Origin: Hemicentrotus pulcherrimus
Lineage: Eukaryota; Echinodermata; Echinoidea; Camarodonta; Strongylocentrotidae
NCBI GenBank assembly: GCA_003118195.1
Contig: BEXV01000975.1
Location: 69,911-133,910, forward strand
Direction of reading: 5' to 3'
Length of the DNA stretch: 64,000 nucleotides
A program made the position numbers and the translations under genes. This document shows positions 32,841 to 63,362 of the stretch, one piece after another. A model generated the notes under the pieces. The model ran no database searches. It saw nothing but the letters and a program-made list of their open reading frames with translations, and was not told where the DNA came from. Every line of letters starts with the position of its first letter. Position 1 is the stretch's first letter.

Positions 32841-35800
32841 GATGATGACACTAGGATATGTTTGAGATGTCAGACGTCATTCCGAGCCGGAAAGAGAACA
32901 AGAGGTCAAAGGTCATACCTGCTGACCTTGTAGTGCATTGGACATTGGAGTTGTGTATACAAGGGATGCTTGAAAGAAGGAATTTTTCTTCTTTCCTGTG
33001 CCCCCTTTTTGGTATGAGAGAGTTTTTAGTGTTTTTTTGGTAGAATTTTATAGATGTTTAAGGAGGTAATTGCTGGTATTCTTCACAATACTGAAAATGT
33101 GGAAAACCAGTGATTCTTTTTATATATTTGTGAGGTAAAACAAAAATGAATGAAGATTTGTTATTTCAAGGATTGTTCTACACATGCAAAATTTGGCAAT
33201 TGAATGAGAGCAAAGAATTAAGGATGAAATAAAGGAAAAGACATACATGTGTGTTGTGAGTCTCAGTATTTCTGTACACAAGTTGAAATGCCCTTTGTAT
33301 TGTCATTAAGAAACCCCAATAAAACACTGCTCTTTGTGAAGAGCACAGCATTCCGAAGCCGGATCTGAATATATCAAGAAAGAAAAGGTCCAATGGATAC
33401 TAAGTCGAAAGAATTGTAGATAGAAACTGAATGTTGGCCACGAGAAGGTTGACATCTCTAAGACATGTCCACTGTTACTCAGTCGTTCCCTGCCTACCAC
33501 TGATGCTGTACACAACTGTCCTTTTTTTCCCCTTTAATAAATCTATATTTTAGCCCTTTAAGGATGTAATTCCGCAGTTATGTTCATGTGAACCTTAGCT
33601 ATGCAGGACTAGCTGAGCTGGGTATTTATTTTCCAGGCACAGTGAATGGAGTCCCTGTCCTTTAAAACGATGGACATACATTTATGCAATGGTTAGTCAA
33701 TAAAGGTGTGGTGGTCTGGTGGATATGTCACCTAACTGTAGATCACAAGGTTCTAGGTTCAAATCCCAGCCTGTCACTAATGCCCTTTGGCATGACGTTA
33801 ATCTACATTTTCCACTCCCCACCCAAGTCCTAATGGTACCCGATATGCTTGAGCGCTACTTACTTTGGCAGCTTCCGTACTTCAGCTATAACCAGGGTAA
33901 TAATGTCTTACTGTCATGAGCGTCATTGCATGACTGTTACGAGTGCTATATAAGTGGCCATAGTTAGTATTAATAATCATGTTGACAGCAGTGTTCATTT
34001 ATGATAAAAAAAAATGTAAATTTGAAGTTTTACAAGAAGTAAAGAACTTACGTATTGTTGGTGTTGAATCAAAGTCTACATGATGAATCCCTCCAAACAT
34101 TTATTTATAGGACAGCTAATGGAACAGAACAATGTTGCTCGGTAATCAAAAGGATGCAATTATAAAAAATATAAAACATTTAATAAGATTCCTCTATTAC
34201 AAGGAGAAATGTAATATATAGACTAAACTTATTCTCTGTGTAGGACTCGGTCTAATGACTTACCAGGGCATTATAATAGTGTGCCATTTACTTGAAGCAA
34301 ACTCCCACCTGTTTGATGAGTTCTGTTGTTGTTTTTTAAAGCAACTCATACATCAGACATATTTCCTGTATATTTCCTGTATTAGAATTCCATTATAGTA
34401 GATATAAAGCTATTTATTCTTGTATAGTAATTTCTTTATCTTTTAAGATGTTGATCATTTTTATTTCAGCATTTATGTTAATTTATGTACATTTCAAATA
34501 CTCAAATGAGGGCAAAACCCAATTGGTGAGATGTGCAAATAAGGATTTATGTTTACATTTGCCAATTTGATATTTATTGACTATTAAATAAACATTTAAC
34601 AACATTACAATGATAATAACTTATGGTATCTAACAACAATTACAGTTACAAAAGCATTTCTTTCTGGAGGGGGGGGGGGGAGAATTGCATTATAGTGGGT
34701 ATCTTTGTTCAAGTGGAAGAATTCAAGTTTATAATGCACTCTCCTGTGCAAGAGTTTCTGATGAACATTTTTGAACAAACATACTCATGGATCTTTTTCC
34801 TTTTCCCCATATATTTACAGTAATGTATAAGAAATTTATAACCATATTCTTAACTTATATATTAAAACCGATGTATACAACTTCATATCCATGTATTTGT
34901 TTGTTTTTGGATGGGGGCTTCGTATGTACCGATATTCATATTTGTGTATGTACAGTAGATGAAAGTTCACCCCCCCCCCCAGCCCAACAATACAAAACAA
35001 AATGGGGATAACACAGATGTGGGACATTTTTTGTAAATGTTCAACTGTGACAATGGTATCATTGTACTGATATATCCAATAATGATGAACTGAATTGCTT
35101 TTTTTTTTTCATTGATGGTTATTTTTGTATATTTGGATCATGATTTGCAATCTATAAAAAAAAAAATAGTCGCAAAGTGAACACAAAAAGAGAGCATTAT
35201 CTTTCATGTATTTGAATGCAGTTGAATTGTAGATGATATCTCAGAAGAAATTTGTTAGAAAACAGTGAAATAGAAAGGATATACTTACATGAGAAACAAT
35301 GAAGTCTTTAATTTCTAATTTAGATATGGCTAATAATGTTTTTAAGATATTGGAAGGAAGATGTATTATTTAATATATTTGTACAGGTGAATATTAAGAT
35401 GAAAATTATGTGTATATAGATTATGATCCTTAACAAATACATTTTTATGTCAACTATAAAAATATCTTTTGCTAGTGAGGACAATATTTTGAATTACATG
35501 TATTTGAAAGAGGAATTTCTTGAACTTTCTCTCCAACATCGTTTTCTGCTATTTTGTTTAACTTGAAATTTTTTGTTTTATATTTGCCTTATGGACTTTA
35601 ACCCCATTCTGGAAAAAACACTTATTCATTCTTGCAAATATAAACATAAATACATTGTGATTTTTCAATTATCATTGCTCAAGATTATTTTTAATTTTTG
35701 GAGAGTGTCACAGACATTGTATTGATATTTAGTTGTACAAAAGTATAAATTCATCATTTTCTTACATTTTACAAACGATCATAACATTAATGGTGCATGA

Positions 35801-36830
35801 TAGATTAAATAATTTTTGTATCTGGTGCTGTAGTAAACAAGAATTTTAATGCAAGTCGTATCATCAACATTTTTCAACCATAGTATGTATTTTGATTTAT
35901 ACTTGTCCCATCAAGTCAATGATATTAATTCAATTCGGGTACATACATGAATATCATTTTGCTACTAATAGCGATATAGGTATAAAAGTCAAGCCGGAAA
36001 CTTGGTAATTGTAGTTACACATATTAGACATTGCAAGTGACACAAGAGAGTAGTTTGAATGAATTTGGTCTTCCTCAGTTATCTATGCTTTCATTCTGGC
36101 ATCTAATTTTGTGGTCCTTGGTGCCTTACTTTCATATAGGTACATAATATTCTAGTCTCTCTCACATGATATACATTTGCATACATGAACAATTGTTCAT
36201 GTACATTTATGAAAACATATATTTACATTTTCCAGAAGTTTTTGTTTTGCTTACCAGAATTTTGTTTATTACTAACCAACAAATTCCTGAAGAAAACAGT
36301 TTCCATTAAAGTAATAAATATGCATATTATATTTCACATGCATTTAAAATCATGAACTAAAATTCAACCATATTAAGAAAGCATTATGGTCACAGTTAAA
36401 TGTAAAACATTCAAATGAAATCAGGACCACTACATTAAATTTAGGTCAGCGATTTAGATGACCGAGTATCGTTTCATTCAGTCAATACACCAACGGTTTA
36501 TTAATCAATATTTTCTGTGTGCCTTTGATATCATTTGTAAAAACATTTTTAAACAAAAGATGTTAGTGTCCTTCAATATGTCATAAATGGTATTACAGAA
36601 TGAAATCATCAAATGTTTTCAATCGTGTCAATATGATTGCAGGGCCCTCTGGAAAAAAAAATTATTTATACTGATGAGGCTACCCTGGGTAAACAAGACA
36701 TTACTTTTTTGTATTGTCACCATCCACAAGAAATGTTAGGTGTAATAGGATTTGTATGTATTGATATGTATTGTATTTCTAGTAAAAGTACTATGCAATA
36801 AAAGTTTTTGATTAGGTTGGATAGTATGAA
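32841..36830 (+). other. TRAF7 3' UTR and downstream flank
   Basis: Follows the TRAF7 stop. AATAAA hexamers are at 33536-33541, 36797-36802 and 36945-36950, so the UTR may end near 33.56 kb or run to about 36.8 kb. It holds a tRNA-derived SINE near 33.7-33.98 kb, and from about 35.38 kb it overlaps repeat block A, which recurs beyond TLR-a. Otherwise AT-rich with no coding signal. Confidence 0.45.
33704..33977 (+). mobile_element. tRNA-derived SINE with intact B box
   Basis: Head GTGGTGGTCTGGTGGATATG resembles a tRNA A-box region, and GGTTCAAATCC at 33756-33766 is a perfect pol III B box. The body contains CACTAATGCCCTTTGGCA, CACCCAAG and GGTACC. The tail has GTGCTATATAAGTGG then TTAATAAT. 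It lies in the TRAF7 3' UTR or flank. Lack of a clean cloverleaf and its other copies argue for a SINE, not a tRNA gene. Confidence 0.8.
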
Positions 36831-37765
36831 TTAAGCTGAGCAACTAATATGTAGGTATTTCAAGTTATTAAAGTCATTTAAATTTTTTCGAAATACTTCT
36901 GAAATGCATGTATGCAACTGGTGTATTTTTTGTACAAAGAACACAATAAAAGAAGATAATGGAAATCATCACACGCTCGACTTTTCTGCTCATTATTTCA
37001 AAATTCTACTTCTATTATTTTCATCATTATAGGCAAGTTAGAATCACTTCATGTCATGCACATAGTTGAATAATCAGTACAAAACAAAACATGATATATT
37101 TTCAAGAAAATTACATTTGACTCAAGTATATGAGTCAAGCACCTCGTTACATGTAGGTGAAGTGTGACATTCATACAAATTATAACAGACAACAACAGCT
37201 TCACATTATTGATTTCCATAACTCTTGCTTTTAAGTCTATATTAAAAATTATCAAAATTGTATTCATTTTTTTGAAAGGATGAGGGTATCTTGAATTGAG
37301 GGGAATATCTAAATAACAGAGAAGAACAGGTTCAGATTACTTATTTTCCATAAATCTACCTTTTAAAATCTATATTAAAAATCATTACACAAAATATATT
37401 TTGACAGCATGAGGATATCTTAATTTGAGGGGAATATCTAAATTCCTTTTCAGTCACTGGACTTTTAAAAGCAAGACAGGTCCTCCTATCATAACTGTTC
37501 ACATGTACATGGCTTTTGTGACTTTTAAAGAGTATGCTATAAATAATGATAATCTTTAGAATACAACAAAGAAAAGTAGACATTAAATATACACAAAGGC
37601 ATTGATGAAACACAAAACACTTGTTTCATACAAATCTGCATACATAAAATCACTCTTATTTTAAAAGATGTTGGAAAATGAAAAATAAAACATACAGAAT
37701 ATTTTGGATTCCACCTGAATTTTGGAGTAACTAATCAATTGAAAGAAAAACATCCCTGGCAGTTT
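35380..37765 (+). repeat. Direct repeat block A
   Basis: Readably homologous over its length to 42550-44820 in the same order and orientation. Anchors include AGCGATTTAGATGACCGAGT with CGTTTCATTCAGTCAATACA (about 36450 and 43530), ATTAATCAATATTTTCTGTG, GGCTACCCTGGGTAAACAAG and TTCCTTTTCAGTCACTGGAC (about 37442 and 44520). Carries an AATAAA at 36797 conserved in the copy (43870). No coding frame. Confidence 0.85.
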
Positions 37766-38115
37766 CAAGAGTGAATATCAACACTAAGCCTACATGTAAA
37801 AAAAAATGTCTCTGGTCTCTTTCCATAAGAACAAAGTTTGAATGGCCTTAAAATCAATTAATTGCAAGTTTTCCGCATCTAAGTTTCACTCAGGATGAGC
37901 TACAAACTTCCTGTTTAGATAAGATTACAGATGTGAAAATGTAGGATAAATTTCAAACAACTTTAAAGCAAGCATGCGTTTTTGGCAAGGTTTTATGTAC
38001 AATTTTTCTTGTTACAATTGGAAGAAAAATACACTTTTAAACAACATTAAAACTTTGAATGACATTTGACTATGCATGAATAGTAGATATGGACAGGGAT
38101 CTGTATATTGGTTTC
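37766..38115 (+). other. Distal 5' flank of TLR-a (block B), shared with TLR-b
   Basis: AGAACAAAGTTTGAATGGCC, then CATCTAAGTTTCACTCAGGA and GAGCTACAAACTTCCTGTTT, recur at 57823-57925 upstream of TLR-b. The TATGCATGAATA and GGGATCTGTATAT pieces near 38073-38108 recur near 58073-58115. Confidence 0.8.
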
Positions 38116-38640: not shown

Positions 38641-38856
38641 GAAGTATTTCTTCTACATATCAAACAGAAGTAGTTTCTCTTTCTGTCATGATGAACCAGA
38701 ATTTATGAGAGGACTAATATTTCCTGGTAACAATATTTTGAGGAAGCTATAGAATTTCCCTCGCTGAAATCTGATGAACGCTGCTGTCATTTCTGATCTA
38801 GTTTGTAATGGCAGTATCATCAACTCTCATTCATTGAGGTCTGTGAATGAAACAAT
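38641..38856 (+). promoter_or_regulatory. Proximal 5' flank of TLR-a
   Basis: Shared with the TLR-b flank at 58410-58681: TATTTCCTG, AGGAAGCT, TTTCCCTC, CTGATCTAGTTT, GTATCATCAACTCTCATT and GGTCTGTGAATGAAACAA before the ATG. TLR-b has about 90-100 extra bases within it (about 58507-58600). Conservation between paralogues suggests promoter or 5' UTR; no TATA box or named site is claimed. Confidence 0.55.
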
Positions 38857-41655
38857 ATGGCTGCCATGATATCTGTTCATTTGGTGCCGGTTGCATTAGG
38901 AATCATGTTCCTGCTCCTGCCTCATTCGGATGGTACTGCAGAAGATGTAACTCCACACAAGAATCTTCCGAAGTGCCACTTCACGAACTCAAGTCATGGA
39001 CTTGTCGCCAATTGCAATAATCTTGGGCTAAGATCAGTACCTCAAGACTTGCCAATAGAAGTGAATACCCTGGACCTGACCTACAACAACATAACAGCCC
39101 TGCATGACGAGTCCTTCAAACACCTGCCAAATCTTATTACACTGGCTGCATCTAGAAACCCACTTTCTGTCATCAAAATCAAGGCCCTGTGGCCTCTGAC
39201 AATGCTTAGATCGGTCATATTATCTCATTGTAATCTACAAACTTTGTCTCCTCTGCTCTTTGTCAAAAACAAGCTACTCACCGTACTACAGTTGGGTTAT
39301 AATCAACTGGAAACTCTTCCTTGTGAAACTCTTGGAGCCATACCAAGACTTTCACGAATAGACCTAGATTACAACAAAGTAAAAAGTCTCAATTTCAAGG
39401 GATGTTCCCGATGGTCTCATTTGACGGAAATAATTCTTCAAGGGAATGAGGTGCAAGAAGTCCATCAGAGTGACTTTCTGCCCCTGCAAAATACTACTGT
39501 TGGTACTTTTTCACTGTTTGGAAATAGTATACAGAAATTGTCACCAAAAGCCTTCTCTCATCTGACTTTCATAGACAGTTTTACACTTCAAGGAAATCTT
39601 CTCAAATCATTTGATATTCGACCATTTTTAGGGATGACTCATATAAACAAATTAGCAATATCTTCATGTAAAATCCATCAACTTCTCCCACCTGACAATG
39701 CCAGTGTTTATCATACCCCTTACCAGTCTATTTTGAAACTTGACATGAGGAGAAATTTCATTGAGAATGTACCTCCTGGATCATTTTGGGGTTTCATATG
39801 GCTCAAGATGCTGCTTTTATCTTATAACAAGGTAACTTCTCTCTCCAACGAGTCCTTCTGCCTGTTGACATCGCTAATAGAACTTGACATATCCTATAAC
39901 AAACTAGTTGCCCTACCACCTGAAACTTTTGCTTGCTTGCCAAATTTAACAACATTGGATGTATCCAACAATTTACTACCAAATATCTCACCCCAATCCT
40001 TTGACGGAATGCCATTAATACGGTCAATCTCGCTATCCGGTAATAGAATCACCGATCTTAACATTGTTAGACGACTTTGGACACTTGGGTCTCTCAGAGT
40101 GCTTGACATATCTAATAACGATATACCATTCATTTCCAATGGGAGATTTACAGGGCTCACCAATCTGCAGGTACTCGATGTATCTAACAGCCAACTTACC
40201 AGTTACGGTGAATATGCATTTACGGATCTTGTACTCTTGAGGGAACTGCATTTGTCAAAAGAGAAAGTAGTACTCTTGAAAGACACCTTCAAGCAACTTC
40301 GGACCTTGCTCTATTTGGATCTGTCATATACAGATATTCAGGTGTCTCAAAGTTCTATTGAACAATTTTATAATATGACATGTTTAAAAGAGCTAAACTT
40401 AGAAAGTGCCACGCTGAGAGATACCGATTTATACAATGGGATTAATAATCAGTCGCTTTTCTCTGGCCTTTTTTCACTACACAAACTACGACTCACAGAC
40501 AATTATTTATTGAGCCTGGATCAGAGAGTATTTCAAAACCTTTCAAAGGTTTACTTTCTTGATATGAGCAAATCAAGAATACAAGTGCTGAGACCGGGAG
40601 TCTTCAGACCCCTCTCTTCTCTCAGGATTCTGGATCTCCGTGAAAACAAGCTGGTGGAGATGGAGGGAGACATTTTTTATGGTCTCTATCTACTGAGTGA
40701 TGTGTACATCTCTGATAACATGCTTAGTGGTCTGGAACCGGCGACATTTGACCAGGCTGCTCGAATGACCGTGCTCTCTTTATCGGGAAATCAAATCAGC
40801 ACCATTGGACGTGGGACAGTTCTGCCAGCGAATACTTCACTAAGGTTGGACATTTCTAGAAACCCTTTCACATGCACATGCTCACTGACATGGTTCAGGC
40901 AATGGCTGCAGTCAGCTGACATAGATCTCCAACATCCAGAAAAGACACTGTGCTCCAAGACATCCTTAAATGGAGCGGTGAATCAGCCAATCATGGCATT
41001 CCATCCAGAGGATCACTGTGGAGAGAACATTGTTCTCATAACGATTCTAACATTCACAGGCGTAGTGCTTGTGATGATATCAATGCTTGCCTACAGCAAA
41101 CGATGGTGGTTGAATCACAAACTTTTTCTCCTCAAACTAGCTGTCATTGGATACGAGGAAATAGCAGAAGATTTCAATGCAGATAATTATCGTCATCATC
41201 TTAACCTCATGTTCGATGAAGCAGAACAGGAATGGGTTGACCGGGTCATGAGACCTGCACTAGAGGAGAGGATGCCACATCTACAGAATATTATCTATGG
41301 AGACGAAGACCTACACCTTGGGATGTACTACATCCCTGCACTCTATGATGCAATCGACAACAGTTTCAAGACCGTCTTGTTGCTAAGCAACCAGTCTGTC
41401 AATGATGCCTGGACCATGACCAAGCTTCGTATGGCTCTGGAGCATCTCAACGATTCAGGACAAGACAAAGTCATCTTAATCTTTGTTGAGGACATCGAGG
41501 ATGAGAACATGCCGTACCTTGTCAGGCTGTTCTTGAGTAGGAACAAACCTTACATGTTGTGGACAGATGATGTAGATGGACAGGAATTATTCTGGGCTCA
41601 GTTTGGGAAAAGCATGAGAGCTAATAAGGCTATCAACAATGCCATTCCTCTCTAA
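38857..41655 (+). CDS. Toll-like receptor, single exon (TLR-a)
   Basis: 932 codons, no intron. Signal peptide about residues 1-27 (hydrophobic VALGIMFLLL). An LRRNT-like Cys pair follows. About 24 leucine-rich repeats (LDLTYNNI near residue 72 to LSLSGNQI) lead to a single LRRCT (669-721, NPFTCTC..C..C), a transmembrane helix (about 725-747) and a 185-residue cytoplasmic part ending AIPL. This is the vertebrate-like single-cysteine-cluster TLR form typical of the echinoid expansion. The TIR is strongly divergent: box 1, normally YDAFISY, reads YRHHLNLMF at 778, although EWV after it is kept. The BB loop has Pro-Ala (YYIPA, Pro 827) where Pro-Gly is usual. Box 3 FW is kept (912-913). Start chosen at the conserved MAAMI, identical in context in TLR-b. 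Expected role: membrane sensing of microbial ligands; ligand and adaptor unknown. Confidence 0.96.
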   Translation: MAAMISVHLVPVALGIMFLLLPHSDGTAEDVTPHKNLPKCHFTNSSHGLVANCNNLGLRSVPQDLPIEVNTLDLTYNNITALHDESFKHLPNLITLAASRNPLSVIKIKALWPLTMLRSVILSHCNLQTLSPLLFVKNKLLTVLQLGYNQLETLPCETLGAIPRLSRIDLDYNKVKSLNFKGCSRWSHLTEIILQGNEVQEVHQSDFLPLQNTTVGTFSLFGNSIQKLSPKAFSHLTFIDSFTLQGNLLKSFDIRPFLGMTHINKLAISSCKIHQLLPPDNASVYHTPYQSILKLDMRRNFIENVPPGSFWGFIWLKMLLLSYNKVTSLSNESFCLLTSLIELDISYNKLVALPPETFACLPNLTTLDVSNNLLPNISPQSFDGMPLIRSISLSGNRITDLNIVRRLWTLGSLRVLDISNNDIPFISNGRFTGLTNLQVLDVSNSQLTSYGEYAFTDLVLLRELHLSKEKVVLLKDTFKQLRTLLYLDLSYTDIQVSQSSIEQFYNMTCLKELNLESATLRDTDLYNGINNQSLFSGLFSLHKLRLTDNYLLSLDQRVFQNLSKVYFLDMSKSRIQVLRPGVFRPLSSLRILDLRENKLVEMEGDIFYGLYLLSDVYISDNMLSGLEPATFDQAARMTVLSLSGNQISTIGRGTVLPANTSLRLDISRNPFTCTCSLTWFRQWLQSADIDLQHPEKTLCSKTSLNGAVNQPIMAFHPEDHCGENIVLITILTFTGVVLVMISMLAYSKRWWLNHKLFLLKLAVIGYEEIAEDFNADNYRHHLNLMFDEAEQEWVDRVMRPALEERMPHLQNIIYGDEDLHLGMYYIPALYDAIDNSFKTVLLLSNQSVNDAWTMTKLRMALEHLNDSGQDKVILIFVEDIEDENMPYLVRLFLSRNKPYMLWTDDVDGQELFWAQFGKSMRANKAINNAIPL

Positions 41656-41880
41656 ATTGTAATGGTGACAAGCCCAATATGAAGGTTTGCAGTGGAAAAT
41701 GTGTTTCACAGAGCACGAGTCAAGTCATCACAACGGCAAGTCCAGTGCATTTCCCCCAATGTTAGAACATTGTCACCAATTTTAGTTCACCTTTAGATTC
41801 CAATACACTGAAGATTGACAGCCGACCAGAGCTTCATGAGACCAAATAACATGAAAAATAAACACTTTAATTGTTGATTA
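41656..41880 (+). terminator. 3' UTR of TLR-a with poly(A) signal
   Basis: Homologous to the TLR-b 3' flank at 61481-61700. AATAAA at 41857-41862 is the first clear hexamer after the stop. The matching TLR-b position reads GAATTTTAAG, so the hexamer is missing there. Confidence 0.65.
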
Positions 41881-42029
41881 CTTTTTATTGAGGCCGCAAT
41901 TGAAATCAAACAACACTTTAATGACGGTCTTCTCCTGCATTCACAAATTCTGTTAATTTCCCATATGTGTATTTTCTATATGTGTTTAAAAGTAATTTGT
42001 CATTTCTGAAAATGTGGTAATCATAGCTA

Positions 42030-42420
42030 AAATTCCTAACCATAATCATCATGATCAAAATCATAATTATATTTGCATTATCATTTTTATCATAGTCATA
42101 TTCAAAATCATAACCGTGATTATTACAAAAAGAATGATCAATTATTATCATAATAAAGATTTAATTGTGCGGTGATCATAATCATAATCGTAATCAGCTA
42201 GGGTTATAATTGCCAAAGCTCTTTTGAGGCGCATAGTCACTAAATATTATGCGCTATACAAGGATGGACGATTATCATTATCATCATAATCATTGTAATC
42301 ATAATCATATTCATAATCATATTCATAATCATATCCATCACCATAATCCAGATCCGGCAAGCTGATAATCATCAAAATCAATGTAATCGTAATCGTAATC
42401 ATAATCATAATCTCTTTTGT
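42030..42420. repeat. ATAATC-type degenerate array downstream of TLR-a
   Basis: Runs of cataat, ataatc and gtaatc, interrupted at about 42190-42275 by a SINE/LINE-like tail (GCGCTATACAAGG then ATTATCATTATC). A related array (62940-63275) lies at the same place after TLR-b. Confidence 0.8.
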
Positions 42421-42549: not shown

Positions 42550-44820
42550 AGTAATTTTGCTAATAATAATATGTACAGATGCAAATTAAGTGTATATAGA
42601 TTACGATTTTTAACAAATAACATTGTATGTGAAATGTAAATTCCTTTTTCTAATGAGAACAATGCATTACGAAAGAGCAATTTCAACAACTTTTTCTCCA
42701 ACATAATTATCTTCTATTTTGTTAACCTGAAATTCTCTTCGATTTATTTCTGCCTTATGGAATTTTCCCCACTTTTGAAAAACAATTATTGATTCTTGCA
42801 ACTATGAACAAAAACAAATGTTGATGTATCGGTTGTCCTAGCTCAAAAAAAAGTTTATAATTGTTTTGGAGAATGTCATAAACATCGTATTGATTTTTAA
42901 TGAGTAGTACAAAAATATATATTCACACCATTTTCCTACATTTTACAAACGAGAATAGCAGTGATGGTGCATGATAGATTTAATACTTTTCGTCTCAGGT
43001 GCTATAGTATACAAGAATTTTGATGCAAGTCATATTGTTTCGAACATTGCAAAATTCTTCAACCATAGGAATTTTGTTATATAACTTTTCCATCGAGTTT
43101 AATCGAATTTAATTCAATTTGGTTACGTAGATGAATATGGTTTTGCTATTAAATACGTGAACGTGTAGATATGTTGGCTTATGTATAGGTTTCAAAGTCA
43201 AGTAGTTTGAATGAATTTTGTCTTCCTCGTTGATATATGCTTTCATTCTGGCATCTAATTGTGTGGCCCTTGGTTGTTTTAGTTTCATATACGTACATAG
43301 ATACTTTAGCGTCTTTACCTATCAGTTTGCACACATGAGCGATTGTTAATGTACATTTATGAATACATCTACATTTGCCAGAATTGTTCTATTAGAAACC
43401 AACCAATTTCTCAAGTAAACAGTTTCCACTGAATTAATAAATATGCTGAAAACATTATGGTCACCGTTGAAAGTGAGAATGTAAAACATTCAAATGAAAT
43501 CATGCCTATTATGTTAAATTTAATTTAGCGATTTAGATGACCGAGTATCGTTTCATTCAGTCAATACACCAACGAATTATTAATCAATATTTTCTGTGTG
43601 CGTTTGATCTCATTTTAAAACCTTTCAAAACAAACGATGCTGGTGTCCTACAATGTTTCATAAATATTACAGAATTAATTAAGCACACGTTTTCAATCGT
43701 GTCAATATGATTGCAGGGCACTAGAGAAGACAATTATAATACTGATTAGGCTACCCTGGGTAAACAAGACATTTACATTTTATGTATTATCATTATCCAC
43801 AAGAAATGTTAGGTGTATTAGGATATGCACGTATCAATATGTATTGTAAATGTAGTAAAAGTACTTTACAATAAAAGTTGTTTAAATTAAGTTGGATAGT
43901 AAGAATTAAGTTGCGTAACTAATGTTTAGGTATTTCAAGTTATATAAGTCATATGAATTAGTTGAAAAATCTTAATTCGTAAATGTATTACACTTCTGAA
44001 ATGCAAGTATTTAACTGGTTTATTTTGTACAAAGAACACATTAATACAAAAAAAGTGGAAACACATCTGCGCATTATTTCAGAGTTCTACTTTTATTATT
44101 TTCATAATTATAGGCAAGTTAGAATCCCTTCATGTCATGCATAGAGTTGAATAATCAGTACAAAACAAAACATGATATATTTTCTAGAAAATTACATTTG
44201 ACTCAAGTATATGAGTCAAGCACCTCGTTACATGTAGACGAAGTGTTGACATTCATACACATTATAACGGAAAACAACAGCTTCACATTATTGATTTCCA
44301 TAACTCTAGCTTTTAAATCTATATTAAAAATTATGAAAATTGTAATCATTTTTTGAAAGGATGAGGATATCTGAAATTGATGGGAATATTCAAAAACAGA
44401 AAACAGGTTCAGATTAATGATTTTTCCATAACTCTACTTTTTAAAATCTATGTTAAAAATCATTACAGAAAATATATTTTGACAGGATGAGTATATCTTA
44501 ATTTGAGGGGAATATCTTAATTCCTTTTCAGTCACTGGACTTTTAAAAGCGAGACAGGTCCTCCAATCATAACTGTTCACATCTACATGTTTTAGTGACT
44601 TTTAGGAGTATGCTATAAATAATGTTAATCTTTAGAATACAACAAAGAAAAGTAGACATTAAATATACATAGATGAAACAGAAAATACTTGATGACTGCA
44701 TACATAAAATCTTCCTCTTCTTTTAAAAGATGTTAAAAATGAAAAATAAAACATTCTGAATAATTTGAATTCCACTTGAATTGTGGAAAAGCAAATCAAT
44801 TGAAAGCCGATAAAGATCCC
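42550..44820 (+). repeat. Direct repeat block A' (copy of block A)
   Basis: Copy of 35380-37765 in direct orientation, offset about 7.08 kb. Small indels are scattered through it. Homology fades near 44820, just where the segment shared with the TLR-b upstream flank would begin. Confidence 0.85.
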
Positions 44821-45934
44821 TGTCATCCATTATTTTCTCATAAAGGGCCTCACTTCCAAAAGTTTTACTGTGTATCAACTTGTTACAGTTGGAGAATTCT
44901 AACTACAATTTGCCTACTTATACACTTTACTTGTACATAAAGCATTTCAATATATTTTTACATGTGTACATATAAATAAGAGACTAAATAACTACCACAC
45001 AATGAACCAAATTTCAAGGCCGTCGTACACAGCAAAGAAGGCAACAGAGACAGAAATGGAAAACTTAAGACAATGCCATGTGTAATTAAGTAGCATACCT
45101 GTATATAAATTAGTTGTGAATATACAATGTTGCCCAGGAAGTAGGAATGATTTATTTTTTTGGAGGTTTACCCTTTTTAAAGACATGATTGGGACAATAT
45201 GGGTTATTCTTGATCAGTTTTTGATTCTTCTTCTCAGAATTTTATTGTTTGATCTATAGAAGAGTCACAGAGATTTGACCAATAAATTTCTGAGGAGAGA
45301 TGAAATTTATCTATAAAGAGTAAACAATATTGTCACAAAAGATTTACGAGAAAAGGTAAAGAAAAATAAGTCCCACTTAAATAACCGAGAACCGACACAC
45401 TACAACAACTCAAAATCTCACTAATTGCAAATCACGACAGCATAATCAAACTTTTACTGGAATAATCCCAAGTCATGGACAACAAGCACATACAAACTAG
45501 TATACATAACAATAATCATTGAATATACAGTAATTTAGTTGAACAATCATTTTAAATACTTATAACTATGGAAATAAGGGACACATTTCATTCACACCAA
45601 GAGATACGCATGAAATAACATTCATTATTGCACTTTCTTATTGGTTGGAATATAAATCAACTCTTTAAAGTGGCAAATATATACGGTAATCTTATAAGTA
45701 TTTCATCACATGATGTCATCATTTATCATAACACAATCTATTATTCATCATAAAAATGTGATACTTTTAAAGTTTTATGTACATAATTTATGAAGTCCCA
45801 GCATGAAACTATTTCTCTTTAATTTACATGTGTCAATTAATATGTAATTTCTAGCATTTACCTTATTTTCAAAATAATTAACGGTACATGCAATTGTATT
45901 TTTCAAATCTTTCTTTACATCTTTCTTTAATCAT

Positions 45935-46189: not shown

Positions 46190-46985
46190 TGCGCGCAGTC
46201 GAAAATGATGCCTCTGCCAAAGAGCAATTTTACAAACCAAAACAGAAACAATTTTTGAAATTCAAGTTTGATTGTAATCCATCTTAGGGTTTTAATGATA
46301 ATGCATGCACAAGCTATTTATAGGCATACATAATGAGCCACATGACCTTTAACCCGATGATCCGTAAATCTAATCAGTTCATTACCTGTGTAAGATACAT
46401 ACATGACGTAAGTTTGGCAGGAATCCATCAATCGGTTCTTGAGATAACACGATCACGAGCCATTTTTGCAAACATAATGAGCCCTGGGACCTTTGACCTT
46501 TGACCTTGTGAACCCAAAATCTATTCAGTTCATTGGCTCTGTAAGATACATACATGACCCAAGTTCGGCAGGAATCCATCAATCGGTTCTTGAGATAACG
46601 TAATCACGAGCCATTTTTGCATACATATAATGAGCCCTGGGACCTTCGACCTTTGACCTCGTGACCTCAAAATCTAATCAGTTCATTGGCACTGTGAGAT
46701 ACATACATGACCCAAGTTTGGCGGGAATCCATCAATCGGTTCTTGAGATAACGCGATCACGAGCCATTTTAGCATACATAATGAGCCCTGGGACCTTTGA
46801 CCTTTGAACTCGTGACCTCAAAATCTAATCAGTTCATTGGCACTGTGAGATACATACATGACCCAAGTTTGGCGGGAATTCATCAATCGGTCCTTGAGAT
46901 AACGCGATCACAAGAACGGGACGTACGGACGGACGGACAACCCCAAAACATAATGCCTCTGGCTACTTTGTAGCAGAGGCATAAA
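46190..46985. mobile_element. Non-autonomous element with four ~150-bp tandem units
   Basis: Units start TAATGAGCC at 46331, 46475, 46628 and 46779. They share TGACCTTTGACCT, CTAATCAGTTCATT, AGATACATACATGAC, GGAATCCATCAATCGGTTC and TTGAGATAAC. The outer ends are ATGATGCCTCTGCCAAAG (left) and GTAGCAGAGGCATAA (right), a short inverted match, with ACGGACGGACGGACAA just inside the right end. The ORF on the minus strand here is a by-product. Confidence 0.75.
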
Positions 46986-56000: not shown

Positions 56001-59000
56001 AAAATGAAGTGATGAAATCAAACAGTATGTAAATTATACAAATATGATTATCTTCAACATAACTCAAGAGCTGTATGAATTGGGCTACGTACAAAGAGAA
56101 AAAGCTTTGACTAAAAGGAAGGTAAAATAATAGACAGTGTAAAGCTACTACCATATATAAAAAATTCAGAACCAAAAATTAAAAAATGATAAATGACTTG
56201 TACCAGGCAATTCTTCTAACCCTATAGTAACCAGTGTCATGCAATATCAAAGCCAAGGGGTATCCTAGACCTTTAGGTATCACATCTCATTAGTGTTACA
56301 TATGTTTTTCTTCCTGTTCTCCAAAACTTAATTGGGGGGTTGTTGTTTTAAAAGAGAATTAATGACATTTACTGTTTATGTATTGTCCTCAGAAATTGTA
56401 TCGAATTCACTATCATGCACATGGAGAAATAATTGGGGGGAAAATGATACATAAAACCACAAAAAAAAGTCAGGATTCAAATTCAAAATAAACAGTGATA
56501 TTACCCAAGGACAAGGACAAATCACCTGGCTTAAAGAAGAGGTTACATGAAAACATAGGAGTGGGACTGTACATCAATATTGTTAACAGAAGGTACCTTG
56601 CCTCATCCTGTATTATGCCTGGCATTTTCATGGGAATAGGAAAGAGAGCTAAACCCAGAGGGATTAGACTGCTAGGGGTATCACTGGGAAGCGAGAAAAG
56701 AATTACAGAAGAAATGAGACACACATCATATTTAATATAGCATTGTTAGCAACTATTCAACTAAATTATCAATGAAATTGAAATGAAAAGACATGTACAC
56801 TATTGTTAATGGTGCTGTCGGTGTATGCAACAATTTCTTTTGTATAAGACAATTAGAAAATGTATAAATATGGGCCATTCAAGATCATCACATTAGATAA
56901 CGATTTTTTTCTTTCTTTGTGATAAGGAAGGCGACATACATTTGACCTACATGTATTTACACTGTATGCAGTGAGGAATATTTCTAAATTGACTGTTCTA
57001 TTTCCTTGTTTACTTTTGTTACATAGTTTTTGTTATATTTATATATATATGTGATATAGTAAAGTACCAACAGTTCTTGCCAAAGACAGGGAACTAGACT
57101 CGACTAGCACTTATGCTAACTTCTGGTACCCCCTATAACAACAAAAGTGTACATTTAATGTTTCTTTCAATTGTATATGACATAATTTGTAAAACAATGT
57201 TTTTGTTGTTCATTTGTAATGTTATTATACTTTATGTAATCACGATTGATACATTTTGTTTTACTCATTTTTATTGTTGTTGTTAAAAAACTTAAACTCA
57301 CACTCAAACTTTATGTACAGAGCAAATGGGAAGGGGAGCTCACAAGACATGTCACAGACTTGCCTATTTGTGTTTGATTGATCGCAACTTCAATTAACTT
57401 CTTAATTGCAACTTCTTATAATCAAAATTCGCTCAGACTTTAGCAGACCTGTTCTTCATATTTGTCTGTTTCTATCAAAGCCAAATTAATATCAGGGTGG
57501 ACTTCCCCTTAGAGAGCACTTAATATATTATCACTGTATTATAAATATAGTTTTAAATAGGGCTGAATTCAGATCTTACTGTTTGAACTCTTTTGCATAC
57601 TGCCATCCTTCCTTGTCTGTGCTACCAGAGATTGTAAAATCAATCTTCCAGTCAGATATCTAAAGAAGAGAAAAAATATGAACATTAAACAAAGATTTTT
57701 TAATGCTATTTTACATTTTGACATGGTCATGGAAAAGGTGAAACTTTTACATTGCTCTTCACCTTGGCCTTAAATGAAAGCAGAAACATCCCTGATCCTT
57801 GAATAATCAACAATTTTCAATAAGAACAAAGTTTGAATGCCCATTTAATTTATTATCTGCAATTTTTCCTCATCTAAGTTTCATTCAGGATGAGCTACAA
57901 ACTTCCTGTTTAGATCAGATTTCAGACGTGAAAATGAAAAAGAAAAGTATGCATTTTGGGTATTAAGGTTTCATATTTAAAACTTCCTGTTAAAATTGCA
58001 AAGAAAATACACTTTTTAACCACTTCAATGAAAAAAAAAATTAAAAACCTGCACAAGAAAATATTTTACTATGCATGAATAAATAATATGGATTATTCAA
58101 CAGGGATCTGTATATGTGTTGGATGTACAGTTAACAACTACATTGTTCATACCCCTTGTAATTTTGATGATTTGGGGGTTTTTGAAATGAAAGAAATGAA
58201 AGAATGAAAGGTCGACATTAGGGTACTCTTTTAATACTTTTAGGTGTAGGTTTTAATACATCAAATCCTCAATAAACATAAATCAATACAAGTCAATTTT
58301 TAAACACTACAAAAGACAAAAAATGGTTTGATTAATTTAGTTGTTATTTGTATATATTTACTTTTTTTATGGCATAGAGGATTTGCTTTAATATTCATAT
58401 CGTACAAAAGTTGTTATTCTTCCTGTCATTATAATGAACCAGGATTTACGAGAGGCCTGGTATTTCCTGTTTTCAATATTTTCAGGAAGCTCTATGATTT
58501 CCCTCACAATTTCATTTCAGGTTTTGCATAAATAGATGTACAAGATTTACACTGTAATTCTACAGAAAAGTTATGCTGATGAGCATTGATGAAAGCTCAC
58601 GCACGCTGCCGCTATTCCTGATCTAGTTTCTAAAGGCTGTATCATCAACTCTCATTAATTAAGGTCTGTGAATGAAACAAAATGGCTGCCATGATATGTG
58701 TTCATTTGGTTCTGGTTGCATCAGGAATCGTCTTCCTGCTCCTGCCTCAGTCAGAGGGTACTGCAGAAGATGTGGCTTCAAACAAGAATCCTCGGAAGTG
58801 CCATTTAACAAACTCAAGTCATGGACTTGTCGCCAACTGCAGGAATCTTGGGCTAAGAGCAGTACCTCAGGACTTACCAATAGAAGTGAATACCCTTGAC
58901 CTGTCCTCAAACAACTTAACAACCCTGCATGATGACTCCTTCAAACACCTGCCAAATCTTGTTACACTTGTTGCATATGATAACCCACTTTCTGTCATCG

Positions 59001-62000
59001 AAAGCAAAGCTCTGTGGCCCCTATCAATAGTTAGGTCGGTCATATTATCTAATTGCAATCTACAGATTATGTCTCCTCTGCTCTTTGTCAAAAACACACT
59101 ACTCACCAATTTAGAGTTGGGTTATAATCAACTGGATTCTCTTCCTTGTGAATCTCTTGCAGCCATACCAAGACTTTCAGGAATTGAGCTAGTTCACAAC
59201 AAAATAAAAAGTCTTAACTTCAAGGGATGTTCCCGATGGTCACATTTGAAGGATATAACGCTGCGGATAAATGAGGTGCATGAAGTTCATCAGAGTGACT
59301 TTCTGCCCCTGCAAAATACTACTGTTGGTACTTTTTCACTGTTTGGAAATAAGATACATCATTTATCAACAAAGGCCTTCACGCATCTGACTTCCATAGA
59401 CAGTTTTATACTTCAAGGAAATCCCCTCAAATCATTTGATATTCAACCATTTTTAGGAATGACTTATATTAAAAAACTATCACTATGGGGATGTGGAATC
59501 CATCAACTTCCCCCACCTGACAATGCCAGTGATTATCATACCCCTTATCCATCTATTTTGACACTGGACATGAGGAGAAATTCCATTGAGAATGTACCTC
59601 CTGGGTCATTTTGGGGTTTCATATGGCTCAAGAAGCTGCTTTTATCTGACAACAAGATAAGTTCTCTCTCCAACGAGTCCTTCTGCCAGTTGACATCGCT
59701 CATAGAACTTGACATATCCTCTAACAAACTAGTTTCCTTACCACCTGAAACTTTTGCTTGCTTGCCTAATTTAACAACATTGAATGTATCCTACAATCTA
59801 CTGCAAAATATCTCACCCCAATCCTTTGACGGAATGCCATTAATACGGTCAATCTTCCTATCCGGTAATAGAATCACTGATCTTAACAGTGGTAAACGAC
59901 TTTGGACACTTGAGACTCTCAGTTTACTTGACATATCTTATAACAATATACCATTCATCTTAAAAGGGACGTTTACAGGGCTCACCAATCTGCAGGTACT
60001 CAATATATCGTACAACCATGTATCCAGTTACAGTGAAAATGCATTTACGGACCTTGTACTCTTGAGGGAACTGCGTTTGTCAAACGAGATGGTAGTACTC
60101 TTGGAAAACACCTTTAAGCAACTTAGCACCTTGCTCTACTTGGATCTTTCATATACAGATATTCAAGTGTCTAAAAGTTCTATTGAACAATTTTATAATA
60201 TGACATGTTTAAAAGATCTTCACTTAGAAAGAACCAGGCTGAAAGATACCGATTTGTTCAACGGGATCAATAATCGGACCCTTTTCTCTGGTCTCTTTTC
60301 ACTACAAAAACTACGCCTCAGAGGCAATTATTTAGTGAGCCTGGATGAGAGAGTATTTAACAACCTTTCAAATGTTTACTATCTTGATTTGAGCGAATCA
60401 AGGATACAGGTGCTGAGGTCGGGAGTCTTCAGTCCCCTCACTTCTCTGAGGTTTCTTTATCTCCGTGAAAACAAGCTGGTGGAGATGGCAGGAGATATTT
60501 TCCATGGTCTCTATCAACTGAGAGTGGTGTACATCCCTGACAACATTCTTCGTGGTCTGGAACCGAAAACATTTGCTCAGGCTCCTCGACTGACTGATCT
60601 CGCTTTATCTGGAAATCAAATCAGCACCATTGAACGTGGGACAGTTCTACCAGCGAATACTTCACTTAGGTTGGACATTTCTAGAAACCCTTTCACATGC
60701 ACATGCACACTGACATGGTTCAGGCAATGGCTGCAGTCAGCTGATATTGATCTCAAACGACCAGAAAAGACACTGTGCTCGAAGACATCATTCAAGGGAG
60801 TGGTGAATCAGCCAATCATGGCATTAAAACCAGAAGATCACTGTGGTGCAGACAATGTTCTAATAACGGTTCTTACATTCACAGGTGTAGTGGTTGTAAT
60901 GATATCCATGCTTGCCTACAACAAACGATGGTGGTTGAATCACAAACTCTTTCTCCTCAAACTAGCTGTCATTGGATACGAGGAAATGGCAGAAGATTTC
61001 AATGCAGATAACTATCGTCATCATCTCAACCTCATGTTCGAGGAAGCAGAACAGGAATGGGTTGACCGGGTCATGAGACCTGCCCTGGAGGAGAGGATGC
61101 CACATTTACAGAATAACATCTACGGAGACGAAGACCTTCACCTTGGTATGTACTACATCCCTGCACTCTATGATGCCATCGACAACAGCTTCAAGACTGT
61201 CTTGTTGCTAAGCAACCAGTCTGTCAATGATGCCTGGACCATGACCAAGCTTCGTATGGCTCTGGAGCATCTCAACGATTCGGGACTGGACAAAGTCATC
61301 TTGATCTTTGTTGAGGACATCGAGGATGAGAACCTGCCGTACCTTGTCAGGTTGTTCCTGAGTAGGAACAAACCTTACATGTTGTGGACGGATGACCAAG
61401 ATGGACAGGAACTATTCTGGGCTCAGTTTGAGAAAAGCATGAGAGCTAATAAGGCCATCAACAATGCCATTCCTCTCTAAATTGTGATGCTGACAAGCCC
61501 AACATGAAGGTTTGCATTGGAAAATGAGACCCACAGAGCAAAAGTCAAGTCATGACAACGGCAAGTCCGAGGCATTTTGCCCCATACATAAGAACATTGT
61601 TATCAATTTTGATTCACCTTTAGATTACAATACCATGCAGGATGACAGCCCTACCAGAGGTTAATTGTAACATGAATTTTAAGACTTTAATTGTTGTGTT
61701 TCAATTAATGGTCCAATTTAAGATTGAAATTTTCTGAAATATGGTATTCCACAAGGTACTGTCCTGGGACCCGTGTCATTCAAGTTGTACGTTAAGCCAC
61801 TAAAAGAAAAAATAATTAGGCGACATGCTGATGATACCAAGCTGTATTGAAGTTCCGATTCTAAAAGACCTAGTAGTCTTATGGAAGTAATGGGTGTTCT
61901 TCATGATTGTATTGCTGAACTTCGTGGATGGATGTCACACAATAGATTAAAACTTAATGAAAATAAGACAGAGATGATGGTTATTGTATCTCCAAAACTC

Positions 62001-63362
62001 AGACATCATCTTCATGAAAATATTTCTCTATGTGTATGTAATTCCCAAGTCGACACATCAGATCATGTTTGTAACTTAGGGGTGATATTGATTCTTCGTC
62101 CACATGCAAAACAAGTTATTGCATTGAGCCAATCTCTGAATTTTCACCTTCACAACATATCAAGGGTGAGGAGATTTTTGACAGAGGAAGTGTGTCATCA
62201 TTTTGTCCATTCGCTAGTCCTTAGTCTGCTGGACTATTCCAGTTCTCTCCTCATTAATGCCCCAGTAATAGAAATTCAAAGACTTCAGCGCATTCAAAAC
62301 CGTGCTGCTCATGTTTTTCCTCGAGCTAGGAGACAGGATGACACATCACCCTACTTTGACATCTTCATTAGCTACATGTACCAGTCGAAAAAAGAATAAT
62401 GTACAAAACAACACTATTGTTTTATAAAATGTACATATAATGTTGCCCCTGAATATTTGTCTTCCTTGTTACAATCTCTGTCACTCCACATATACATGTA
62501 ATCTCTGCTCAACTACAAACACAACAGCTCTCCATTTGCATAGAATATAATCGAAGATAGGTGAGCGAAGTTTTTATTACACTGGTCCGGTTACATGGAA
62601 TAGGTTACCTTGTGAATTATTCTGTAGTATGTCTATTGAATTATTGCAGAAGCATCTTGAAACACACCTATTTACATTGTTATTAACTGCATGACATTTC
62701 TATCATATATTTTGTTGAGTTAATTCATTGATATATTTATTTTGTAAAGCGCTCTGATTAGTTTTAAATTGGATATAGCGCTATAAAAGAAACAATTTAT
62801 TATTATTATTATTGAGGTTGCAATCAACAATAAGCAACCCGCTCACTAGAGCCATCTCCTGCATTCACTAACAGTGTAAATTTCCCATATGTGTATTTTT
62901 TTCATGTGTTTAAAAGTAATACGTCATTTCTGAAAATGTGGTAATTATCAGAATTAGAATGATAATCATCAAAATCAGAAACATGATTTTATATTTATAG
63001 TCATTACAATCATAATCACAATTGTAATCGTAATCTTAACCATCATCATATTCATAATCATAGCCATGATCAAAATCATCATTAAAATCAAAATTATAAG
63101 CATAATCATCATAATTAATGTAATCACAATTAATGTAATCATAATCACTGTAATCATAATCACTGTAATCATAATCAAATTCATAATCATAACCATAACG
63201 ATAACAATCTTAATCATAATGACTAATCATAATCATGATCACAATCACAATCATACTCCCAATCACGCTCATGATAAACTCACCCACTGCCAGAGTGATG
63301 AGGGCATCTGCACGTTGTCTCTCGATTCAATAATCTTCCCAGAATCATTTGTCCATAACCCT
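49884..63362 (-). CDS. TECPR1: TECPR1 (tectonin beta-propeller repeat protein 1), 3' nine exons
   Basis: Minus-strand join: 63284-63362, 57580-57659, 54584-54646, 54001-54175, 53256-53391, 52755-52847, 52154-52260, 51567-51674, 49884-50051 (1009 bases, about 335 residues). All splice phases match. The start reads LWTNDSGK..LPSSLWQW, ISDWKIDF, DKEGWQYAKEF and the Arg-rich YVRRRRW, a dysferlin-type (DysF) domain. Tectonin repeats follow (FRVWAVARDGSAFYRN, KCSVWAIDAQMNLWYR, VWVIADQV). The protein ends GNALC-stop. In vertebrates TECPR1 binds ATG5-ATG12 and phosphoinositide, tethers autophagosomes to lysosomes and takes part in selective autophagy of bacteria. The N-terminal half with the first repeats and PH domain lies right of the window. 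Convergent with TRAF7; one intron hosts a TLR gene on the other strand. Confidence 0.88.
50052..51566 (-). other. TECPR1 intron holding a minisatellite
   Basis: A purine-rich stretch near 50055-50220 and a long GAGTGAGTGGGTGAGG array (50849-51553) fill much of it. The part at 50220-50830 shows nothing recognisable. Confidence 0.85.
50849..51553. repeat. G-rich GTGAGTGAGG minisatellite (about 700 bp)
   Basis: Irregular tandem units of 4-12 bases (gagtgagt, gggtgagg, gagggagg). A higher-order pattern is visible, e.g. GTGGATGGGTGAGTGAGGGA at two sites about 280 bases apart. On the minus strand it reads SLTHPLTP-like repeats without a stop in the TECPR1 frame for about 200 codons. Confidence 0.9.
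51567..51674 (-). CDS. TECPR1: TECPR1 exon (last tectonin repeat)
   Basis: Acceptor ttcataag, donor gtaagt at 51566-51561. Reads VWVIADQVDGARGVVCRRDG, then KAWDKGAG: 36 codons, phase 0. The frame stays open beyond the donor into the intron minisatellite. Confidence 0.9.
51675..52153 (-). other. TECPR1 intron
   Basis: AT-rich; a weak CTGTTTATAAAGACTG piece near 51700 recalls the CCTGTCTA repeat. Nothing else seen. Confidence 0.7.
52154..52260 (-). CDS. TECPR1: TECPR1 exon (tectonin repeats)
   Basis: Acceptor tatttgcag, donor gtatta. Reads MNLWYRHDITPTFPEGTKWI, then HVSSRVRKVSLGPQDQ, ending in phase 0. Confidence 0.92.
52261..52754 (-). other. TECPR1 intron
   Basis: Plain AT-rich intron, nothing recognised. 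Confidence 0.8.
52755..52847 (-). CDS. TECPR1: TECPR1 exon (tectonin repeats)
   Basis: Acceptor atcgcag, donor gtaagt. Reads DTWFHIAPPSVAPLKQISAG and KCSVWAIDAQ; enters and leaves in phase 1. Confidence 0.93.
52985..53135 (-). mobile_element. tRNA-derived SINE, minus strand
   Basis: On the minus strand the head is CGTGGTGTAGTGGATATGTC, then a degraded B box (AGATCAAGTCC). The body contains CTTTGGCAAGATAGTAATCT, CACTCCACCCAGGTGAAGTA and GGTACC. Same family as 33704-33977; inserted in a TECPR1 intron (52848-53255) in the sense of that gene. Confidence 0.75.
53256..53391 (-). CDS. TECPR1: TECPR1 exon (tectonin repeats)
   Basis: Acceptor gtatcag, donor gtatgt. Reads GTAWMHVPTDQPFQSISVGG, KFRVWAVARDGSAFYRNRV and SDYNRT; one base carried over. 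Confidence 0.93.
53392..54000 (-). other. TECPR1 intron
   Basis: AT-rich, no repeat recognised. Confidence 0.8.
54001..54175 (-). CDS. TECPR1: TECPR1 exon (tectonin repeats)
   Basis: Acceptor aattgcag, donor gtgaga. Reads RCQIKTSGPWKQMPNLGLKD, WDGPIALWAIGTNGDVVTRL and GVTRECPE. The GPIALWAIGTNGDV segment is a tectonin blade. Confidence 0.92.
54245..54378 (-). mobile_element. tRNA-derived SINE, minus strand, second copy
   Basis: Minus-strand head GAGGTGTCTTGGTCTAGTGG, then ATATGTCATTC; degraded B-box region GGATCGATTCG; body with CATTAATCTACACTTGCCAC and CACCCAGGTGTAGTAAATGG. Lies in the TECPR1 intron 54176-54583 in the sense of that gene. Confidence 0.75.
54584..54646 (-). CDS. TECPR1: TECPR1 exon (DysF domain, end)
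   Basis: Acceptor tttacag, donor gttaga. Reads TKAFHKDRRWNDYVRRRRWV; the Arg-rich WxxYVRRRRW end is typical of DysF. 63 bases, phases match on both sides. Confidence 0.9.
54647..57579 (-). other. TECPR1 2.9 kb intron
   Basis: AT-rich, with a TA run near 54971-54990 and A-rich tracts. No exon is missing, since the DysF coding sequence and phases join across it. No mobile element recognised. Confidence 0.75.
57580..57659 (-). CDS. TECPR1: TECPR1 exon (DysF domain, middle)
   Basis: Acceptor ttctttag, donor gtaaga. Reads ISDWKIDFTISGSTDKEGWQ, then YAKEFK; enters in phase 0 and leaves two bases. It continues directly from WQW of the exon 5.6 kb upstream on this strand, which fixes the large intron. 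Confidence 0.9.
57775..58681 (+). promoter_or_regulatory. 5' flank of TLR-b, shared with TLR-a
   Basis: Distal part (57775-58115) matches 37752-38110; proximal part (58410-58681) matches 38660-38856. The middle (58116-58400) differs from TLR-a. About 90-100 bases near 58507-58600 are extra to TLR-b. Confidence 0.55.
58682..61480 (+). CDS. Toll-like receptor, single exon (TLR-b), nested in a TECPR1 intron
   Basis: 932 codons, same length and frame as TLR-a with no stop or indel. Layout is identical: signal peptide (1-27), LRRNT-like Cys, about 24 LRRs, LRRCT 669-721, transmembrane helix about 725-747, TIR to residue 932. The cytoplasmic 185 residues differ from TLR-a at only seven places by eye (for example Ile/Met and Asp/Glu near residues 769 and 787). 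The first 189 residues differ at about 43. The same divergent TIR features occur: YRHHLNLMF at box 1, YYIPA at the BB loop, FW kept. An open frame with length kept to the codon and a frozen TIR argues for a working gene. It is transcribed against TECPR1, so antisense overlap of primary transcripts is expected. Confidence 0.96.
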   Translation: MAAMICVHLVLVASGIVFLLLPQSEGTAEDVASNKNPRKCHLTNSSHGLVANCRNLGLRAVPQDLPIEVNTLDLSSNNLTTLHDDSFKHLPNLVTLVAYDNPLSVIESKALWPLSIVRSVILSNCNLQIMSPLLFVKNTLLTNLELGYNQLDSLPCESLAAIPRLSGIELVHNKIKSLNFKGCSRWSHLKDITLRINEVHEVHQSDFLPLQNTTVGTFSLFGNKIHHLSTKAFTHLTSIDSFILQGNPLKSFDIQPFLGMTYIKKLSLWGCGIHQLPPPDNASDYHTPYPSILTLDMRRNSIENVPPGSFWGFIWLKKLLLSDNKISSLSNESFCQLTSLIELDISSNKLVSLPPETFACLPNLTTLNVSYNLLQNISPQSFDGMPLIRSIFLSGNRITDLNSGKRLWTLETLSLLDISYNNIPFILKGTFTGLTNLQVLNISYNHVSSYSENAFTDLVLLRELRLSNEMVVLLENTFKQLSTLLYLDLSYTDIQVSKSSIEQFYNMTCLKDLHLERTRLKDTDLFNGINNRTLFSGLFSLQKLRLRGNYLVSLDERVFNNLSNVYYLDLSESRIQVLRSGVFSPLTSLRFLYLRENKLVEMAGDIFHGLYQLRVVYIPDNILRGLEPKTFAQAPRLTDLALSGNQISTIERGTVLPANTSLRLDISRNPFTCTCTLTWFRQWLQSADIDLKRPEKTLCSKTSFKGVVNQPIMALKPEDHCGADNVLITVLTFTGVVVVMISMLAYNKRWWLNHKLFLLKLAVIGYEEMAEDFNADNYRHHLNLMFEEAEQEWVDRVMRPALEERMPHLQNNIYGDEDLHLGMYYIPALYDAIDNSFKTVLLLSNQSVNDAWTMTKLRMALEHLNDSGLDKVILIFVEDIEDENLPYLVRLFLSRNKPYMLWTDDQDGQELFWAQFEKSMRANKAINNAIPL
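61481..61734 (+). other. 3' flank of TLR-b
   Basis: Matches the TLR-a 3' flank up to TTTAATTGTTG (about 61685-61696). The AATAAA seen in TLR-a is replaced (GAATTTTAAG). Homology then stops at the retrotransposon and resumes at about 62812. Confidence 0.75.
61735..62812 (+). mobile_element. 5'-truncated non-LTR retrotransposon (CR1/L2/Jockey-like 3' end)
   Basis: Reads GIPQGTVLGPVSFKLY at 61744, then HADDTKLY and a stop; these are the reverse transcriptase GxPQGSxLGP and (Y/F)ADD motifs, with Tyr changed to His. A frame of 172 codons (61881-62399) continues the RT thumb (LRGWMSHNRLKLNENKTEMM, RRFLTEEVCHHFVHSLVLSL, LQRIQNRAAHVF). The 3' end is GCGCTATAAAAG, then (TTA)n at 62798-62812. It is dead: truncated at the 5' end, with stops. 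It splits the segment shared by the two TLR 3' flanks, so it inserted after the TLR duplication. Confidence 0.88.
62813..63275. repeat. TLR-b distal 3' flank and ATAATC-type array
   Basis: TTGAGGTTGCAATCAACAAT at 62813, then CATATGTGTATTTTTTTCATG and ATTTCTGAAAATGTGGTAAT, match 41889-42020 after TLR-a. An ataatc/gtaatc/cataat array follows at 62940-63275, reaching almost to the TECPR1 donor at 63283. Confidence 0.85.
63284..63362 (-). CDS. TECPR1: TECPR1 exon (DysF domain, start)
   Basis: Acceptor attctgtag-type (ctgtag) before 63362, donor gtgagt at 63283-63278. After one carried base it reads GLWTNDSGKIIESRDNVQ, then MPSSLWQW: 26 codons, ending in phase 0. The WxD-SGK and WQW pattern is DysF. 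Confidence 0.85.

Follow-up and report, generated by a model that had tools for sequence, protein, structure and literature searches.

A Toll-like receptor gene nested antisense in a TECPR1 intron of the sea urchin Hemicentrotus pulcherrimus: a probably old arrangement that appears to stem from DNA-level duplication

Genes for LRR transmembrane receptors that lie antisense in the introns of host genes are a described class. In vertebrates, LRRTM1-3 occupy alpha-catenin introns, a long-conserved nesting, and many genes nested in such hosts encode LRR proteins (PMC3933685). In Drosophila, 2mit lies antisense in intron 11 of timeless2 (tim2), and this nesting is kept across Drosophila species; the study reports no functional relationship of nested and host gene (PMC3786989). 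The Toll-like receptor (TLR) gene described here, TLR-b, which lies in an intron of TECPR1, adds a case to this class. LRRTM1-3 are neuronal adhesion proteins of presumed retrotransposition origin with hosts unrelated to immunity (PMC3933685), and 2mit has two exons and a role in behaviour (PMC3786989), whereas TLR-b is a single-exon TLR that appears to have been copied at the DNA level. Three features thus distinguish this locus from LRRTM and 2mit: the TLR cargo; the immune-related host; and good evidence for DNA-level copying. TLR families have expanded in echinoderms (PMC8609888), and no report of a TLR nested in TECPR1 was found among titles and abstract openings of the open-licence literature.

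The window analysed here is a stretch of 64,000 nucleotides of H. pulcherrimus contig BEXV01000975.1. Its TECPR1 gene lies on the minus strand, extends past the right window end and terminates in a coding exon recognised by homology (50051-49887), with the stop codon just past 49887. Mapping with the S. purpuratus protein P0123 and the Lytechinus pictus protein P0121 yielded 22 exon pieces with approximate ends; the gene shares 91% identity with P0123 across 64% of the query length. In the 414-Mb assembly, P0123, which is without the C-terminal exons, has at least 16 matches, all on the window's contig.

Human TECPR1 has two DysF regions and, like the urchin host protein, tectonin propellers, and it binds sphingomyelin through the N-terminal DysF alone (PMC10476172). 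The urchin intron that holds TLR-b, by contrast, appears from alignment to interrupt the second, C-terminal DysF region. In alignments, TECPR1 exons here match the two DysF regions of annotated TECPR1 proteins, which carry PF06398. The short DysF exon piece itself has no Pfam match, and its label comes from this homology. Hyd_WA is above the Pfam cut-off in two of the three propeller exon pieces; the third has no family match, and homology to TECPR1 proteins at full length agrees with the propeller assignment.

The intron in question (57660-63283, minus strand) measures 5,624 bp and is the longest of 21 mapped TECPR1 introns (median 735 bp), the other 20 spanning 405-2934 bp, with exon ends approximate throughout. 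It is a GT...AG intron with the donor CAGTGG/GTGAGT and the acceptor TTCTTTAG/ATATCT. The exon before it (63284-63362), which by homology appears to encode the beginning of the second DysF region, and the exon after it (57580-57659) were both identified by homology and splice sites, and both carry AG/GT and GT/AG sites. Joined, 63362-63284 and 57659-57580 give a single open frame, GLWTNDSGK...SSLWQW/ISDWKIDF...KEFK. The junction residues are identical in the protein alignment with P0123 and are kept with small changes in the Lytechinus proteins P0121 and P0122. The original prediction that the DysF coding sequence is in phase across this intron therefore stands. No N run lies between 57580 and 63362; all four in the window are at or below 32194.

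Downstream in the host, 56473-56683 (minus strand) is the counterpart of the alternative last exon in which S. purpuratus TECPR1 isoform X3 (P0123) terminates. It starts at 56683, 0.9 kb past the TLR-bearing intron, with a good acceptor, and continues the reading frame of the exon at 57580. Over 54 aa it shows 87% identity to the isoform X3 end, and it has one match in the assembly. It has no Pfam family, and no AATAAA occurs within the 760 bp scanned.

Between the two coding exons of this one host gene lies TLR-b (58682-61480, plus strand), an intact open frame of 932 codons. Pfam recognises LRR_8 together with TIR_2 (31.4 bits; cut-off 28) and TIR (27; cut-off 21.3), and hydrophobic stretches, candidates for a signal peptide and a transmembrane segment, are visible by eye. 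A full-length TLR on the other strand, as originally predicted, is thus present, and its nesting antisense within the TECPR1 intron is confirmed. TLR-b is 85% identical to S. purpuratus P0001 over the full query span; for TLR-b as for TECPR1, the closest named protein comes from S. purpuratus. An intact sister gene, TLR-a (38857-41655, plus strand; open frame and Pfam domains), lies outside TECPR1, 8.2 kb past its stop codon and in the same orientation as TLR-b. The two are 89% identical in coding DNA and 82% in protein. Both belong to the sea urchin single-exon TLR family (S. purpuratus P0001, P0003), with 82-89% identity to S. purpuratus proteins; TLR-b departs from that family by its nesting in TECPR1.

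The comparison of TLR-a with TLR-b gives a dN/dS of 0.43 (NG86) or 0.52 (YN00) over the whole coding sequence, 0.56 or 0.68 over residues 1-720, and 0.07 or 0.10 over TIR residues 780-932. The low TIR value beside the higher one for residues 1-720 suggests that the signalling domain is under constraint while the recognition domain is freer to change. The tree path from the a/b node is 0.074 to TLR-b against 0.161 to TLR-a. Canonical TIR domains carry RDxxPG at the BB loop. Here, DLHLG occurs in all eight of TLR-a, TLR-b, P0001, P0003, P0004, P0005, P0006 and P0008, and the usual BB-loop proline is missing from these eight sea urchin TIR domains; the P0002 sequence stops before this position.

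The flanks of TLR-b match those of TLR-a, in agreement with the original prediction, in five shared blocks with K2P of 0.16-0.23. Upstream, these pair 37820-38045 with 57815-58023, 38656-38762 with 58396-58505, and 38765-38855 with 58590-58680 (TLR-a and TLR-b, respectively). The shared 5' flank of TLR-b (57815-58681, plus strand) thus reaches 867 bp before the ATG and is the probable promoter side of the gene. Downstream, a proximal block (61481-61696, plus strand) matches 41656-41876 and a distal block (62785-63018, plus strand) matches 41855-42098, from which simple-repeat matches run on to about 63258. The cassette so defined extends over 5,204 of the 5,624 bp of the intron by solid matches, or 5,444 bp with the right-end simple-repeat matches. 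That the intron is nearly all TLR cassette is accordingly right as to extent. Within it, 1,088 bp (61697-62784, plus strand) that were initially overlooked are absent beside TLR-a. This insert has an ATT-rich end and a reverse-transcriptase-like piece (RVT_1, E 0.0035, below the Pfam cut-off). It appears to be a decayed reverse-transcriptase-like fragment gained after the a/b duplication, because it interrupts the 3' flank common to both genes.

Local BLAST at 37 of 40 loci (without L008-L010), a partial test that covered about 1.5 kb or less beside each match, placed both cassette flanks at TLR-a and TLR-b only. The exceptions were short R pieces near L029 and, beside the TLR-like locus L028, 186 bp from the 5' flank of TLR-b. 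The latter (58123-58308, 73% alike) is perhaps a dispersed repeat.

TLR-a is flanked by direct repeats of about 2.3 kb found by self-comparison, R1 to the left (35397-37761) and R2 to the right (42577-44825), which are 78% alike with a K2P of 0.134. Less diverged than the TLR pair, they would be the younger under equal rates; a single event giving rise to both repeats and pair (0.134 against 0.16-0.23) is unlikely on that assumption. The repeats are perhaps the trace of a further, since lost TLR copy. A minisatellite at 46366-46911 (151-bp unit, 3.6 copies, 92% matches) lies some 3 kb beyond the stop codon of TECPR1. On the other side, WD-repeat exons at 27380-31743 (plus strand) are 64-86% like human TRAF7 and presumably belong to a TRAF7-like gene, which would place TLR-a between that gene and TECPR1. 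These exons reach 31743, and the final exon of the TRAF7-like gene was not found; TLR-a may itself be nested in that gene. A second TECPR1 copy carrying TLR-a was considered and rejected, since TLR-a lies beyond the TECPR1 stop codon and the P0123 matches are confined to one contig.

The structure of the cassette bears on how the pair arose. Fourfold-site divergence between TLR-a and TLR-b (51 of 343 sites differ, 0.166) is close to that of the flanks, which argues that flanks and coding sequence were copied together; by the same resemblance, there is no sign of recent gene conversion between the two. A retrogene inserted through an RNA intermediate would agree with the single exon of TLR-b and with the reverse-transcriptase-like fragment that adjoins it. 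The lack of introns is uninformative, however, because at least 12 other TLR-like frames in the genome are likewise single open frames of near-whole query length, and the fragment breaks the shared 3' flank and is hence a later arrival. Moreover, homology is not confined to the transcribed region: it takes in 241 bp beyond the TLR-a AATAAA as well as the 867 bp that precede the ATG, which argues against RNA mediation. Retroposition was therefore rejected and has next to no probability left, and good evidence points to a DNA-level duplication carrying both flanks. That the unit was copied with its flanks, as the original prediction held, is thus retained, and what does not follow is the direction "into" TECPR1. 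If TLR-a is the original and a short TECPR1 intron received its cassette, this would account for a match of some 25 bp between the left edge (57772-57798) and the ends of the R repeats that adjoin TLR-a, which holds in register for both repeat copies. This match is weak, in that 0, 10 and 10 of 300 shuffles equalled its score in three comparisons, and the intron minus the cassette would measure 180 bp, or 420 bp with the simple-repeat edge left out of the cassette, close to or under the shortest lengths among the other 20 introns. If instead the intronic TLR-b is the original and TLR-a arose by duplication of a segment that extended beyond the intron, the short leftover intron is mildly favourable, and the common flanks end 155 bp from one splice site and 25-265 bp from the other, as expected for a copy of an intron interior. 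Against this, window self-comparisons revealed no recognisable TECPR1 exon remnant beside TLR-a, and the R-end match favours the opposite direction. Copying out is as possible as copying in, each standing at slightly below even odds.

Two further readings concern the reality and the consequence of the nesting. A misassembly, with TLR-b belonging at another place, might be suspected from a close relative 20 kb off and from the simple repeat at the right cassette edge. The absence of a nearby N run speaks against it; the 11% difference in coding DNA argues that TLR-b is no collapsed or doubled copy of TLR-a; and S. purpuratus records link the same genes, with equal contig size as a proxy. A misassembly is accordingly very improbable. 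Little more probable is that the nested TLR tunes its host, as a switch between the sensing of outside microbes and of ruptured vacuoles. Transcription from the TLR-b side would then run head-on against TECPR1 and may end late, because the AATAAA found 202 bp beyond the TLR-a stop codon has no counterpart at TLR-b when read by eye and the first AATAAA downstream (63470) lies past a TECPR1 exon. A caveat is that ATTAAA occurs earlier, at 61946 within the insert and at 63081. Immune challenge would shift TECPR1 to the conserved alternative last exon at 56683; the shifted protein would retain the N-terminal half, the sphingomyelin sensor in human, and lose most of the C-terminal propeller. In human cells, nested genes in tandem orientation lead to host exonization, intron retention and cryptic polyadenylation (PMC3192792), whereas TLR-b and TECPR1 are head-on.

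The age of the arrangement can be approached through the S. purpuratus relatives. A protein tree of 19 rows unites TLR-a, TLR-b and P0001-P0004 in a single clade (100/100) to which none of its four Lytechinus rows belongs; the Lytechinus row closest to it, P0006, falls with the S. purpuratus proteins P0010 and P0012 and the own-genome L015 (100/99). Within the clade, TLR-a clusters with P0003 and P0004 of S. purpuratus (100/100), P0001 of that species attaches to the TLR-a side (98/96), and TLR-b pairs with the ENA protein P0002 alone (87/86); none of the S. purpuratus proteins is a firm partner of TLR-b in this tree. An earlier 25-row tree, from which six rows were left out here and in which one row (L013) was misread, gives the same grouping of the six clade members. 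By this phylogeny, the a/b split is older than the split from S. purpuratus, which makes a recent insertion in this species unlikely.

Linkage in S. purpuratus points the same way. P0001, P0003 and TECPR1 P0123 are all recorded on contigs of 37,767,046 in size; that is, both S. purpuratus rows of the TLR-a/b clade with contig data (2/2) share the TECPR1 contig size, against none of the remaining three TLR rows of that species with such data (P0005, P0010 and P0012). Among the best 120 rows, none of the five Lytechinus TLR rows for which contig data exist shares the size of the Lytechinus TECPR1 contig. Equal contig size serves as a proxy for a common scaffold; it supports linkage in S. purpuratus, and not nesting. 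The nesting of TLR-b in TECPR1 is probably old, not new.

Taken as a whole, the locus is best explained, with a probability of about 0.8, as a real and long-standing nested gene from DNA duplication, in which an ordinary TLR resides in a normally spliced host. The two single-exon TLRs make up a small cluster at the 3' end of TECPR1, with TLR-b intronic and antisense and TLR-a just past the stop codon; a DNA duplication with both flanks, prior to separation from S. purpuratus, would have given rise to the pair. TLR-b is most likely an ordinary TLR, presumably transcribed from its own copied 5' flank; TECPR1 would splice out the whole TLR-b stretch; and strong interference between the two is not expected.

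This pairing of two innate-immunity genes, apparently old, ties TLR-b to the fate of a conserved TECPR1 that is seen once in the assembly. A large rearrangement that removed or relocated TLR-b would be likely to damage TECPR1 as well, and the locus offers a natural test of whether nesting slows immune-receptor turnover. Cross-regulation is likewise testable, as the locus allows one to ask whether overlapping transcription couples a microbe receptor to a ruptured-vacuole sensor. If the two are uncoupled, TLR-b would still be a relatively dated nested gene from DNA duplication rather than retroposition.
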